A program made the position numbers and the translations under genes. DNA of 21,391 nt from an uncultured Emergencia sp. GTDB taxonomy: Bacteria > Bacillota > Clostridia > Peptostreptococcales > Anaerovoracaceae. Positions within the stretch are counted from its first letter, which is position 1, and every line of letters starts with the position of its first letter. This document shows positions 3,525 to 21,226 of the stretch, piece after piece. The DNA is taken from NCBI GenBank assembly GCA_902476665.1, contig CABSEO010000004.1, forward strand, positions 1 through 21,391. The letters run 5' to 3'. The notes under the pieces were generated by a model. That model made no database searches and was not told where the DNA came from. It saw only the letters and a list, made by a program, of their open reading frames with translations.

Positions 3525-6500
3525 CTATTTCAGTTCTTTGTATTCCAGTTTTATGTGTTTCTGCTTCAAACTGATGGCAATGGCAAAGATTTTGGCGGTG
3601 TCTATACATGTCATGACAGGAAGACCGTGTTCAATCGCCTGTCTTCTGATTGGGAATGTATCTGCACCAATAAGATTCATAGCCTTTGGCGTATTGATAA
3701 CTATCTGTATTTTTTCTCCAATCATGGGTATTACCCTGTCATAGGCCACAGTTTCCGCTTTTACCCCTTGCTGTGACAGAAAGTCTGCTGTTCCCTGAGA
3801 TGCATAAATATCAAACCCCAGCGCCTTATACCTACTGATAATTTCTGCAGTATCCTCAGTCTTATCATGATCCTTCAGCGAAACAAATACGCCGCCTCCT
3901 GTCGGAATATCGGTTCCTGCACCAAGAAACCCTTTATATATTGCCTTTTCCAGCTTCTCATCAATTCCGAGCACTTCTCCGGTAGACTTCATTTCCGGAC
4001 CTACTGCCACATCCACATCTGTCAGTTTGGAATCCGAGAAGACTGGAATTTTTACCGCATAATAATTATGGCTTGGATACAGACCGGTTCCCCCCTCCAG
4101 ATCAGCCAGTTTTTGTCCAGTCATCACACCTACGGCAATCTTTACCATGGGAACTCTGGTCACTTTGCTGAGAATCGGTACTGTTCTGGACGCTCTCGGA
4201 TTTACTTCGATCACGTAGATCTTGTCCCCATCCCATGCGTACTGAATATTGACAAGTCCCACGATATGAAGTGCTCTGGCGATCTTCTTGGTATAAGCTA
4301 CCAGCTGCTCGATCACTTCGTCAGGCAGGCTGTAAGGCGGGTATACACAGCAGCTGTCGCCGGAGTGAACGCCTGTACGTTCCACATGTTCCATGATACC
4401 CGGAATGAGCACGTCCTCACCGTCTGCTACGGCATCTACTTCTATTTCTTTTCCTTCAATATATTTATCTATCAGTACAGGATGTTCATGAGACAGCTTT
4501 ACAGCTTCTTTCAGGTATTTCATCAGTTCTTCATCACTATAGACAACCTGCATGGCTCTTCCGCCTATAACGAAAGACGGGCGCACCACCAGTGGATATC
4601 CCAGACGTTCTACGGCTTCAAAAGCTTCTTCTCTGGTTCTAACCGCACAGCCCTTTGGGGTGGAAATCTCCAGAAGATCCAGCAGTTCAGAAAACTTTTC
4701 TCTATCCTCAGCCAGATCAATATATTTATTCTGTGTCCCCAGAATCCGGATACTTCTTTCAGCAAGCTTTGCGGCAAGATTCAGCGATGTCTGACCGCCT
4801 AACTGCAGTATAACACCCTCCGGCCTCTCCTGCTTGATGACATTCATCACATCATCCGTATGCAGCGGTTCAAAATACAACTTATCCGAAGTATCAAAAT
4901 CAGTGCTGACAGTTTCAGGATTATTATTGATAATGATGGACTCATACCCAAGGTCTTTCAGCGCCCAGACTCCCTGTACACAGCTATAGTCAAATTCTAT
5001 TCCCTGGCCGATTCTTATCGGCCCTGAACCCACTACAAGTATTTTTTCATGAGGTGATTTCCTGCTTTCATTTTCTCCTCCATAGCTGGAATAATAATAT
5101 GGCGTCAGCGCTTCGAACTCTCCGGCACAGGTATCAACCACCTTATATACCGGATAAATATCATGATAAATTCTGATGTCCTGCAGTACTGCTCTGTCAA
5201 GGCCGGTCAGATCCAGAATCTCGTCATCGGTAAAACCTCTGTATTCCGCCTCCCTGATTAATTCTGCTGTCGGTTCAGAGTTTTTCAGAGTTTTTTCCAT
5301 CTGCACAATCCCGAAAACTTTATAAAGGAACCAGCGATCAATTCTGGTCATATGGAAGATATCTTCTACATCTGCCAGTCCACGTCTGAAGGCTTCGGCA
5401 ATACAGAAAATACGTTCGTCATCACAAGCTGCCAGTTTATCCATCAATTTTTCATCATTCAGTGATGTGACATAAGGAATCCTGAGGCCTGTGCCTTCCA
5501 CTTCCAAGGATGCAATAGCCTTCAGCAGTGCACTTTCAAAGTTTCTGTCAATTGCCATAATTTCACCGGTGGCTTTCATCTGTGTTCCCAGCTTTCTTGA
5601 AGCTGTTCTGAATTTGTTAAAAGGCCATTTAGGAAATTTCACCACACAGTAGTCCAGAGCCGGTTCAAAACAGGCACTGGAACCTTGAGTTACATAATTT
5701 TTCAGTTCATCCAGACTATAGCCGATGGCAATTTTAGCTGCAATCTTTGCAATCGGATATCCTGCAGCCTTGGAAGCAAGCGCTGAAGATCTACTTACTC
5801 TGGGATTTACTTCAATTACGATGTATTCGTCCCGTTCCGGATCCAGTGCAAACTGCACATTACATCCGCCTTCAATCTCCAGACTTCTAATAATCTTCAG
5901 TGCCGAATTTCTCAGCATCTGATACTGACTGTCATTCAAAGTCTGTGTCGGCGCAACTACAATGCTGTCACCGGTATGAACACCCACAGGATCCAGATTT
6001 TCCATGGAGCAGATGATAATGCAGTTATCCTTGCTGTCTCTAATAACTTCATACTCTACTTCTTTCCAGCCTGCCACCGATTTTTCAAGCAGTATCTGTC
6101 CGATGGCACTCTTTTCCATGCCCATCCGGCAGTAGTGTTCCAGCTCTTCATCATTATGAGCTATGCCGCCTCCAGTTCCACCAAGCGTATAGGCCGGCCG
6201 AATGATGACGGGATAGCCAATTTTATCCACAAAGCAGCGACATTCCTCCATAGTAGTGGCTATGGTACTGTCTGGAATCGGTTCTCCAATTTCCAGCATC
6301 AGTTCCTTAAAGGCCTCTCTGTCCTCAGCCTTATGAATGCTTTCCCGATTGACTCCAAGAAGTTTTACTCCATATTTCTCAAAGATCCCTTTTTCATCCA
6401 AAGACATGGCCAGATTCAGTCCGGTCTGCCCGCCAAACCCTGCCAGAACCCCTTCCGGTCGCTCCTTCTCCAGAATTGCGGTTACAGCTTCTTCTGTAAT

Positions 6501-18729: not shown

Positions 18730-20079
18730 TTAAAAGATAATCGTTATTTCCGTTCCTTCGCCCAGTCTGCTATCCATACGTATTTTTGCATTATGGTAGG
18801 CAGCACCGTGCTTTACAATGGAAAGACCCAGGCCTGTACCGCCGATTTCCTTGGAATGGCTCTTGTTGACTCTGAAAAATCGTTCAAAGACCCGATCCAG
18901 ATCCTCTTTGGGAATTCCAATGCCTGTATCCGCTACACTAACGGCTGGTCTTCCATCCTCCTCAAAGACGGTGACCGTGACCGTTCCGTGATCCCGATTA
19001 TATTTTATCGCATTATCACATAGGTTGTAAATAATTTCTCCTAAAATTTGTTGTACAGCCTGCACATAAATATGTTTACCGTCAAGGTGAACGGTCAAAT
19101 TCTTGGATTCTGCCGCTGATTCCAGCGTACTCAGTACTTCCTCACAGGCAACATAAAGGTCCAGCCGCTCCTTTTTTGCTGCCACTTGCTTTTCATCAAG
19201 CTGTGAAAGCTTGATGATATCTTCCACCAGACACACCAGCCTCTGTGCCTCATCATAGATTCTGCCTGCAAAACGAGGAATATCTTCTTCTTTGACCAGT
19301 CCGTTTTTAATAATTTCAGCAAATCCTGAAATAGAAGTCAGCGGCGTCTTTAATTCATGAGACACGTTAGCCGTAAATTCCTTTCGAAAGTCTGCTTCTC
19401 TTGTCTTCTCATCCACATCCACCTGAAGCCTGCTGATTCTTTGATCCAGAGCCTTCTTCTGTTCCGCAATCTTGTCAATCAGTGGCTGCACTTCTTCATA
19501 CCCTACTGTTTTACGCACATGCTCCAGATCGATACGGTTAATTGGCTCCACAATCTTCCTTGCAGTCCTTGCCGCCAGAGCAAAAGCCAGAACCACTGCC
19601 AGAAGCAGTACAACCAGCAAAGGCTGAATCATATTCAATACCAGTGTAAATATAGTGAACTGATCTCTGGAAACCCTGAGCACAGTGCCGTCCTCAAGAC
19701 GCAACGCACAGTACATGGTTTTTTCCGCTAAAGTCTTTGAATATCTGGAATCTTCTCCATAACCTGTTTCCAGAGCTTCTTTCACCTCAGGCCTGCTGCC
19801 GTGATTTTCCAGGCTTTCATCAGTGATCACCGAATCCCAAATCACGGTCCCGTCTTGAGCAATCCACGTAATTCTGAAATCATGGGAAAGCTGTAAATCG
19901 TTAAAATAAGCTTTTCCACTTTGCTCCACTCCGTAGCCTGCCAGATAAGCCTCATTTTTAAGCTCATCGGTGTAAGCTTTGCTGAACTGAGCGTACAGTG
20001 CGCCCAGAATCAGGGAGAGACAGGCTACCCATACACAGATGGCAACTAGAAAGCTCCCCTTAAAAATCCGCTGTCTCAT
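18730..20079 (-). CDS. phoR: PhoR-type sensor histidine kinase
   Basis: A 449-aa membrane kinase presumed to sense phosphate limitation. A first transmembrane helix (about 9-30) and a second (about 148-170) bracket an extracytoplasmic domain of about 115 residues. A HAMP/linker segment (ARKIVEPINRID) follows, then a coiled-coil stretch (200-230). HisKA contains His241 in VSHELKTPLT. The HATPase domain shows N-box Asn356 (DNAIKYN), G1 DTGIGIP (384-390), the F-box ERFFRV and G2 GGTGLGLSIVKH (about 413-424). The start overlaps the response-regulator stop by four bases (ATGA), so the two are translationally coupled. There is no PAS domain evident between HAMP and HisKA, unlike E. coli PhoR. The phosphate role is inferred from the transporter in the operon; a generic envelope-stress role is the alternative. 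Confidence 0.88.
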   Translation of the reverse strand: MRQRIFKGSFLVAICVWVACLSLILGALYAQFSKAYTDELKNEAYLAGYGVEQSGKAYFNDLQLSHDFRITWIAQDGTVIWDSVITDESLENHGSRPEVKEALETGYGEDSRYSKTLAEKTMYCALRLEDGTVLRVSRDQFTIFTLVLNMIQPLLVVLLLAVVLAFALAARTARKIVEPINRIDLEHVRKTVGYEEVQPLIDKIAEQKKALDQRISRLQVDVDEKTREADFRKEFTANVSHELKTPLTSISGFAEIIKNGLVKEEDIPRFAGRIYDEAQRLVCLVEDIIKLSQLDEKQVAAKKERLDLYVACEEVLSTLESAAESKNLTVHLDGKHIYVQAVQQILGEIIYNLCDNAIKYNRDHGTVTVTVFEEDGRPAVSVADTGIGIPKEDLDRVFERFFRVNKSHSKEIGGTGLGLSIVKHGAAYHNAKIRMDSRLGEGTEITIIF

Positions 20080-20753
20080 GCTTTATCTTCTCCAATTTTA
20101 TATCCAATGCCACGTACAGTTTCTATCAGTTTTCCGCAGGCGCCCAGCTTCTGCCGGAGAGAACGGATATGGACATCAACCGTCCGGCTTTCTCCATCAA
20201 AAGCATAGCCCCAAATCTTAGTCAGAAGCTGATCACGGGTGAAGACAATTCCCTGATTTTCCACTAACAGCGTCAACATTTCAAATTCCTTCAAGGTCAG
20301 CGTAATAGGCTGACCATCTGCTTTTACAATGTGTTTTGCCGGAGCAACAAAAAACCCTCCGACAGTATATTCTTTCTCTCCGTCTACCACTTCTGCCCGC
20401 CGCAGCAGCGCCTTCACCCTTGCAATAAGTTCCATCATGCCGAAGGGTTTAGGAAGATAATCATCTGCTCCATAGTCCAGGCCGATCACTTTATCATACT
20501 CAGTACCTTTTGCAGTGAGCATCATAATCGGAACCTTTTGGGTTCTGCTGGAGGACCGGAGTTTTTTCAGAATCTGTAGTCCATCCTCTTCAGGCAGCAT
20601 GATATCCAGCAAAATCAACCGCGGAACCTCTTTGTTCACAGCTTCCCAGAACAGAGACGGCCGTTCAAAGCCCTTTGCATCATAGCCTGCATTATTTAAA
20701 GTATATAATACAAGTTCTCTGATACTATTGTCGTCTTCCACAAAATAAATCAT
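20076..20753 (-). CDS. phoB: OmpR/PhoB-family response regulator
   Basis: A 225-aa DNA-binding regulator. The receiver domain has acidic residues E6-D7-D8, phosphoacceptor Asp50 in LLDIMLP, Thr in MMLTAK near residue 78 and Lys in LPKPFG near 100. The C-terminal winged helix (about 125-222) shows LTLKEFEMLTLL, the RDQLLTKIWGY segment and the recognition helix RTVDVHIRSLRQKLG, ending in the wing IRTVRGIGYKI-like motif (ETVRGIGYKIG). The start at 20753 follows GGAGG by 10 bases. It heads a phoB-phoR-transporter operon, and its promoter contains TTTACA/TTAACA repeats like Gram-positive Pho boxes, so autoregulation is plausible. The PhoB/PhoP name rests on context more than on sequence. Confidence 0.9.
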   Translation of the reverse strand: MIYFVEDDNSIRELVLYTLNNAGYDAKGFERPSLFWEAVNKEVPRLILLDIMLPEEDGLQILKKLRSSSRTQKVPIMMLTAKGTEYDKVIGLDYGADDYLPKPFGMMELIARVKALLRRAEVVDGEKEYTVGGFFVAPAKHIVKADGQPITLTLKEFEMLTLLVENQGIVFTRDQLLTKIWGYAFDGESRTVDVHIRSLRQKLGACGKLIETVRGIGYKIGEDKA

Positions 20754-20786: not shown

Positions 20787-20833
20787 ATAATATGCAGTTA
20801 AATACCATATGTTAAATGTAAAATGTTTGTAAA
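20787..20833 (-). promoter_or_regulatory. phoB promoter with Pho-box-like TTTACA repeats
   Basis: On the minus strand -35 TTAACA (20815-20810), a 17-bp spacer and -10 TATTAT (20792-20787). Directly upstream are two TTTACA copies at 20833-20828 and 20822-20817, exactly 11 bp apart. PhoP boxes of Gram-positive bacteria are TT-A-CA repeats with about 11-bp periodicity. The third copy, TTAACA, coincides with the -35 but is 7 bp, not 11, from its neighbour. Confidence 0.5.
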
Positions 20834-20925: not shown

Positions 20926-21150
20926 TTAACCAGAATCCAAAAAAAGTACCGGATTGAGTATAAATATGAGAATTCGTTAACCAGAGACTTAAAAACACTT
21001 GATTTTAAGTATAAATGTTTATACTTGTTTTCGCATTTTAAAGCTATTTTGGTTAAATAAATACAAAAAATAGATGAATCTGATTTTAAGACCTGCCATT
21101 CTCCCCGAATCTTTATACTCATTTTTAATAAAACAGACAGTTCTGGTTAA
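20926..21150. repeat. Four copies of a bipartite module TTAACCARA/AGTATAAA with fixed 31-bp offset
   Basis: Box A (TTAACCAGA; TTAACCAAA in copy 3) is followed by box B (AGTATAAA) starting exactly 31 bp after it in every copy. Copy 1 is on plus at 20926-20965 and copy 2 on plus at 20977-21016. Copy 3 is on minus at 21056-21017 and copy 4 on minus at 21150-21111. The 22 bases between boxes are not conserved. Copies 2 and 3 abut head to head around the palindrome AGTATAAA-TG-TTTATACT (21008-21025). Because orientation is +,+,-,-, the box pairs 1/4 and 2/3 can pair in a nested fold. A second 8-bp inverted repeat, ACTTAAAA/TTTTAAGT (20987-21010), lies inside copy 2. I do not recognise the element. 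Confidence 0.8.
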
Positions 21151-21179: not shown

Positions 21180-21226
21180 AAAAGAAAACGGCAACATGAC
21201 GGAAGCCTTCATCCGGTTCCGTCATG
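21180..21226 (-). terminator. Terminator-like hairpin after the sigma-54 activator gene
   Basis: A perfect 10-bp stem, CATGACGGAA (21195-21204) with TTCCGTCATG (21217-21226), encloses a 12-nt loop. It is followed on the minus strand by TTGCCGTTTTCTTTT, an interrupted T-tract. It lies 36 bp after the stop of the partial gene at the window end. Confidence 0.6.

Follow-up and report, generated by a model that had tools for sequence, protein, structure and literature searches.

A helically phased four-site intergenic repeat in an uncultured Emergencia sp. that may be paired with a PD-(D/E)XK-like nuclease

The 21,391-nucleotide stretch of DNA from an uncultured Emergencia sp. analyzed here (the window) carries an intergenic element built from four copies of a 39-bp bipartite unit. 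The repeat belongs to a family of intergenic elements scattered among gut bacteria and looks like part of a previously unrecognized pairing of enzyme and repeat, not like a switch for the neighboring gene. Its boxes most likely work at the DNA level, as sites along one face of the helix, and not through folded RNA. We think it rather probable (about 0.6) that the phased four-site element and a PD-(D/E)XK-like nuclease form a REPIN/RAYT-like pair derived from an unrelated enzyme, in which elements would spread by a nuclease-dependent process and then be selected in place.

The window was scanned with the pattern TTAACCARA-N22-AGTATAAA, which gave four matches with no mismatch, at 20926(+), 20977(+), 21056(-), and 21150(-), and no further match at up to 3 mismatches elsewhere in the window. 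In 100 dinucleotide shuffles, the mean at up to 3 mismatches was 0.11 matches and the maximum was 1. The four copies, their coordinates, the 31-bp box-to-box offset, and the +,+,-,- order described in the first-pass annotation were all reproduced. The unit is bipartite and non-palindromic, and the limits of the element (TTAACC to GGTTAA, 20926-21150) were set by alignment to 14 relatives with unalignable flanks. The 22-base spacer had been described as divergent and free; spacers do drift, but A-tracts recur inside them, so they are not wholly free. These A-tracts stand at fixed positions across family copies and could bend DNA.

The relatives came from a search of 296 genomes, all of the family to which genome G001 belongs, with the reversed pattern as the control. 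Genome G260 had 20 matches at up to 1 mismatch, compared to 0 for the control, and the other 295 genomes had 0 or 1 each, which is the control level. At up to 3 mismatches, G260 had 36 and 27 matches versus 5 and 11 for the control. The G260 matches form 14 elements of about 205 to 268 bp in 13 loci (L166 to L178), in different places. The window element shared 75% identity over 233 bp with one of them (E = 5e-32), and blastn showed no similarity between the window and the 13 loci outside the element. The G260 ends read TTAACC...GGTTAA, with the variants TCAACC, GGTTGA, and GGATAA and an unclear left end in L167; the aligned elements have terminal inverted repeats, as expected of miniature inverted-repeat transposable elements (MITEs). 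All four copies, in the +,+,-,- order, were located in 12 of the 14 elements, three of which (L166, L171, and L173) carry one weak or slightly shifted copy. The offset between units 1 and 2 is 51 bp in 13 elements and, read by eye, 41 bp in L167.

Two of the G260 elements (L176:4534-4770 and 5717-5943) enclose a gene for a PD-(D/E)XK-like nuclease that has not been described before, the only homologue found in that genome; the product is a stand-alone protein of about 262 amino acids (aa), with no other gene-sized open reading frame (ORF) between them. The two flanking elements have an identical 39-bp unit 2 and share 77% identity over 214 bp, a likeness that would fit duplication or conversion. 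The G260 nuclease matched no Pfam or NCBIfam family above cut-off, and a Foldseek structural search returned no match at an E value of ≤0.001. A nuclease match was present in 181 of the 296 genomes, often with 5 to 9 per genome. Among 64 homologues, E153 and E202 are invariant and D188 is present in at least 90%; from this conservation, the three are the putative active-site residues. In a Pfam scan of the 64 homologues, the best 25 of 29 families were only nuclease-type and chance matches, with no Y1/HUH transposase domain (Transposase_17) among them. The nearest homologues of the G260 nuclease are in genomes G002 and G228 (48% and 47%), and the gene is flanked by two elements in all three TTAACC-type loci examined, inverted in G260 and in the same orientation in G002 and G228. 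No matching transposase or regulator protein was seen in the window itself, in agreement with the first-pass annotation, and the candidate partner is the nuclease of these relatives. Relatives of the nuclease domain also occur in nine viral loci (L309 to L317), eight of which match the C-terminal half only. The PADLOC model PDC-S68, a candidate phage-defense protein of ~1,220 aa, ends in the same nuclease domain, a possible link to defense.

The same plan was found with other boxes. The G002 and G228 elements around the nuclease have the boxes TTAACC-N24-TGTATAA, with 54 and 75 matches in the two genomes versus 5 and 5 for the control. In G001, a different nuclease adjoins units of GTTTCGTAA-N21-TTACGAAAC, with 40 matches per strand versus 7 and 10 for the control (the unit being palindromic, the strands give largely the same places). 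These units cluster in arrays on nine contigs, and the same pattern was below control in G253 and G002. A second G002 nuclease family (L224) adjoins GCACCAT-N20-ATGGTGC, with 27 units in 9 arrays in about 1.49 Mb of G002 and none for the control. Both of these families consist of inverted half-sites 20 to 21 bp apart. Cluster counts by eye were 14 in G260, 17 in G002, and 26 in G228, with 9 arrays and some isolated units in G001 and 9 arrays of the second G002 family. We also examined 50 nuclease loci, 30 returned by the homologue search and 20 chosen in five genomes. Palindromic arrays (at least 3 units, exceeding 20 shuffles) were present at 17 of the 50, but in none of 200 stretches taken at random and in only one of the 65 phoB-relative flanks. 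A looser detection flagged 32 of the 50, many of them A/T-rich runs, and the stricter count was used; the three nearest TTAACC-type loci (L179 to L181) are non-palindromic and fall outside the 17.

The distances between boxes are quantized. In the G002/G228 elements, the inner + box and the next - box are 108, 181-182, 191-192, 202-203, 211-214, 222-225, 233-234, 244-245, 255, or 265-266 bp apart. Of the periods from 6 to 20 bp, 10.50 bp fitted best (R = 0.929, n = 42), and none of 20,000 random sets reached this R. This sample includes orthologous copies and leaves out L303, which has no inner box. The 22 distinct values alone are the fairer test because of the orthologous copies, and they gave an R of 0.890, also with 0 of 20,000 random sets. 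For G260 and the window together, the inner distances (13 elements) were 77-80, 90, 100-101, and 110-111 bp (R = 0.910, n = 13; 1 of 20,000 for distinct values), and the right-hand distances between units 3 and 4 (14 elements) were 73-74, 83, and 94-96 bp (R = 0.928, n = 14; 7 of 20,000 for distinct values). In these two small sets, periods of 10.65 and 10.70 bp fitted best. The palindromic arrays at the 17 loci have steps of 42-43, 51-53, 62-64, 72-74, 94, and 117 bp, with a best period of 10.5 bp (R = 0.907, n = 39; 0 of 20,000 random sets) for steps below 130 bp, six longer ones (264, 175, 189, 179, 178, and 135 bp) being excluded. Genome-wide, steps of 63-64 and 74 bp dominate the G001 arrays, with one step of 66 bp. 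Length changes between orthologous elements are near whole turns as well, for example, 182 to 192, 223 to 214, and 192 to 245 bp. The earlier suggestion of protein contacts whole helical turns apart is borne out by this 10.5-bp quantization in several families, and it argues for proteins that sit along the same side of the DNA duplex. To our knowledge, evolved natural elements whose spacing records selection on DNA helical phase in this way are rare.

A large nested RNA fold had been offered as another interpretation and is unsupported. Single strands folded better than shuffles (z of -2.7 and -3.0), as any nested inverted repeat does, but the pairing of the boxes was not clearly specific to the element. 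For boxes 2 and 3, pairing inside the same element had no advantage over pairing across elements (1,558 of 2,000 re-dealings were as good), and for boxes 1 and 4 the advantage was slight (66 of 2,000); one unit each of L173 and L166 was out of register by 1 to 2 bases in this test. No spacer pairing and no clear covariation were found across the elements, and no Rfam family reached its gathering score with the element. The fold was rejected on the lack of clear covariation, the unpaired spacers, and the helix-turn quantization, which is a property of duplex DNA. A phage or plasmid origin was also rejected, as a 311-base query gave only weak, short matches to 2 phage and 7 plasmid records. Each of 16 viral contigs had one exact unit, and none had a close inverted pair.

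The boxes appear to be under selection in place, as they are conserved where the spacers drift. Across 41 orthologous units at 14 G228/G002 loci, identity was 99.7% in the second box, 95.1% in the first box, and 72.8% at spacer positions 11 to 24, figures that favor the boxes somewhat, because the boxes served to recognize the units and ten of the loci had been chosen for their box likeness. The sample leaves out one missing unit (L303) and the elements of the nuclease loci. For the 11 unit pairs whose spacers had diverged furthest, the corresponding values were 98.7, 90.9, and 48.7%. Over the 13 box positions, about 0.3 changes per unit were seen versus about 3.5 expected at the spacer rate.

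Presence and absence of elements differ between relatives. When 10 G228 element loci were compared with about 1.49 Mb of G002, one clean absence was found: the element of G228:C22 (L232) is missing from the syntenic G002:C40 (L338), with 343 versus 55 bases between the matching flanks and no TTAACC-N24-TGTATAA match on G002:C40. By eye, the gene upstream of this element (L232:2662-2937) is apparently truncated, and its stop codon lies in the element, so insertion is likelier than loss. A second absence (L236/L261) lies in a diverged spacer, with no TTAACC-N24-TGTATAA match on G002:C15. At L334:13648-15562 (G002:C34), about 1.9 kb that includes two GCACCAT-family units fills the place that a TTAACC element (L231) occupies in G228; one spacer is thus used by two element families. 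The L233 comparison falls at a rearrangement, which makes four of the 10 loci that could be classed. No target duplication was seen by eye at 15 elements, with the L232/L338 junction blurred by divergence (~83%). The first-pass annotation had also proposed non-autonomous mobile elements with TTAA ends. Dispersal, sharp ends, and the presence/absence differences agree with this, and no target duplication was established.

These results bear on whether the element is a selfish, MITE-like mini-transposon without host value that is cut and pasted either by the nuclease, in the role of a transposase, or by a transposase not seen here. The sharp TTAACC...GGTTAA ends and the dispersal, the nuclease gene flanked by two copies, the presence/absence between relatives, and the one insertion that seems to supply a gene's stop codon are all as this explanation predicts. 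However, a neutral relic would lose its boxes at the spacer rate, and the orthologous boxes and their phase are kept where spacers are down to 49% identity (the most diverged 11 of 41 units); the target duplication is also not seen. We therefore consider a purely selfish element unlikely.

Phased, looping-type spacing and selection in place would equally be expected of operator arrays for a conventional regulator or a nucleoid- or chromosome-organizing protein, with the nuclease incidental or a later passenger. Against this, arrays accompany nucleases of several box types (17 of 50 loci versus 0 of 200 controls), the only homologue found in G260 sits between two copies, and elements occur in all gene orientations, orientation being the one property of the neighboring genes that was compared. 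From a crude ORF reading of 37 elements, flanking genes were co-directional at 19, divergent at 7, convergent at 5, and unassigned at 6, and 31 of the 37 had no overlapping ORF of at least 90 aa. Such regulator arrays appear improbable to us.

We propose instead that the element provides four 39-bp bipartite protein-binding sites on one DNA face, two per end in opposite orientation, and that the bound proteins would meet across a loop or wrap. The binding protein would most likely be the ~262-aa PD-(D/E)XK-like nuclease, encoded between two element copies elsewhere in the genome, an arrangement seen in G260 and predicted for the organism of the window. Elements may spread to new intergenic sites by a nuclease-dependent process, following the logic of REPIN spread by RAYT, and selection would then keep them at each site. 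The nuclease would bind the boxes, cut the element ends, move the elements, and be held on them, presumably with a benefit to the host. Some observations weigh against this proposal. The excluded step of 175 bp, and perhaps that of 135 bp, fits whole turns poorly. A strict one-to-one rule is countered by the 33 of 50 nuclease loci that lack a palindromic array, three of which are of the TTAACC type, and by a box/nuclease co-evolution that is weak and driven by one clade.

More tentatively, the elements may belong to an undescribed class of prokaryotic systems of enzyme plus array. A genome would then have several nuclease/array pairs that are independent of one another, and every nuclease would read its own 34- to 42-bp sites, which have to lie on one helical face, in arrays that are scattered over the chromosome and selected in place. 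The nuclease might then be inactive or regulated on host arrays, which could be self-markers, sinks, or loop anchors of genome maintenance or defense and not merely mobile relics. There is no family model for the repeat or the protein, and no description of this nuclease/array system was found in the open-access literature. If the proposed pairing is true, a large nuclease family (181 of 296 genomes) gains a predicted, directly testable DNA partner, and logic of the REPIN/RAYT kind would have evolved twice, on this occasion from an unrelated enzyme. The box/nuclease pairs may also be a source of site-specific DNA-binding proteins that are independent of one another and have long (34- to 42-bp) sites.

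The element lies in the spacer upstream of a phoB/phoP-type gene (Table 1), by eye further upstream than the Pho box and before the terminator-like hairpin of the AAA+ gene. The first-pass annotation had suggested an operator array that might control phoB or the AAA+ system, an idea for which the location in the phoB upstream spacer and the likeness of TTAACC to half a Pho box also speak. As the main explanation this is wrong, and a locus-specific operator is hardly credible. At the 80 loci of other genomes that carry PhoB relatives, no 39-bp unit stands next to the gene, the single match at up to 2 mismatches (L052) lying >8 kb from it. Nearer to the gene than the element, phoB has its own conserved Pho box, and the 14 G260 copies stand at 13 loci unlike the window outside the element. 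There is no phoB orthologue in G260 (best match, 45%). The Pho-box consensus, which we take to be TT(A/T/C)ACA direct repeats 11 bp apart, underlies our labeling of 20817-20833. The TTAACC boxes of the element recur at ≥51 bp, not 11. The window PhoB is closest, among named sources, to proteins of Emergencia and other Anaerovoracaceae. L001 and L002 both have TTAACA-N5-TTAACA at the place matching the window Pho box and lack the repeat. Of the two outcomes named beforehand as counting against the repeat, lack of box conservation beside phoB was found at the 80 loci, but lack of enrichment elsewhere was not, as the pattern is strongly enriched in G260. Near the phoB of a relative, from L001:13861 onward (G001), there is a palindromic array of 5 units with the half-site GACTTGAG in exact 63-bp steps.

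Table 1. Features of the window in and around the four-site element
Feature	Position	Strand	Remarks
Whole element, 225 bp	20926..21150	.	Dispersed copy with ends TTAACC...GGTTAA; aligns with 14 G260 elements, flanks unalignable
Unit 1, 39 bp, TTAACCAGA-N22-AGTATAAA	20926..20964	+	0 mismatches
Unit 2	20977..21015	+	0 mismatches; 51 bp after unit 1
Unit 3	21018..21056	-	Start-to-start 79 bp from unit 2, about 7.5 turns
Unit 4	21112..21150	-	94 bp from unit 3, 9 turns
phoB/phoP-type response regulator	20076..20753	-	Neighbor, no part of the system
Pho-box-like TTTACA-N5-TTTACA of phoB	20817..20833	-	Separate from the element
Terminator-like hairpin behind the AAA+ gene	21195..21226	-	Outside the element; stem seen in folds, T-run by eye

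Among known systems, TIGR-Tas and CRISPR resemble the present one in having repeat arrays that adjoin a nuclease gene; TIGR arrays were compared because TasH turned up in the search. One report describes TIGR arrays as alternating 8- to 12-nucleotide edge and loop repeats with 9-nucleotide spacers (PMC12045711). In contrast, the units here are 39 bp with a box offset of 31 bp, and steps are 42 to 94 bp in multiples of 10.5 bp. CRISPR arrays consist of direct repeats that are nearly identical, separated by unique spacers of about the same size, whereas the units here are inverted and diverging, and their steps vary by whole helical turns. Arrays are here also scattered through the genome, and a guide architecture was not seen. 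We consider it very improbable that the arrays are transcribed into guide or structured RNAs used by the nuclease.

MITEs and the RU-1 enterobacterial repeats (RU-1 size from PMC2759123) are likewise intergenic elements of 100 to 300 bp with inverted ends. The present element differs in its multi-site, helically phased anatomy, its boxes conserved in place, and the lack of a target duplication among the sites inspected. ERIC is a further enterobacterial intergenic repeat unit to which it can be likened. Other PD-(D/E)XK nucleases are Tn7 TnsA, T7 endonuclease I, the homing endonuclease I-Bth0305I, and the C-terminal domain of PDC-S68; the nuclease here stands alone and has a different N-terminal half.

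The closest logic appears to be that of REPIN/RAYT. Both systems have dispersed intergenic non-coding repeats, an enzyme gene between two repeats, and several repeat types in related genomes (PMC2817692, PMC8049555), and the genomes bearing the enzyme here hold many dispersed intergenic copies, G260 having 14 elements and G002 and G228 having 54 and 75 matches to their boxes. RAYTs are described as single-copy and vertically inherited (PMC8049555). The enzymes differ, as the one here is PD-(D/E)XK-like and RAYT is a Y1/HUH protein (IS200/IS605-like). REPIN/RAYT repeats are 20- to 40-bp hairpins, whereas the sites here are double-stranded, 34 to 42 bp long, and phased every 10.5 bp; the window unit is not a short palindrome of the hairpin kind, and copies are far fewer per genome. 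We therefore do not file the system as a member of REPIN/RAYT, because its enzyme is unrelated and its repeat looks like a phased double-strand array, and we suggest the likeness as an analogy of logic.
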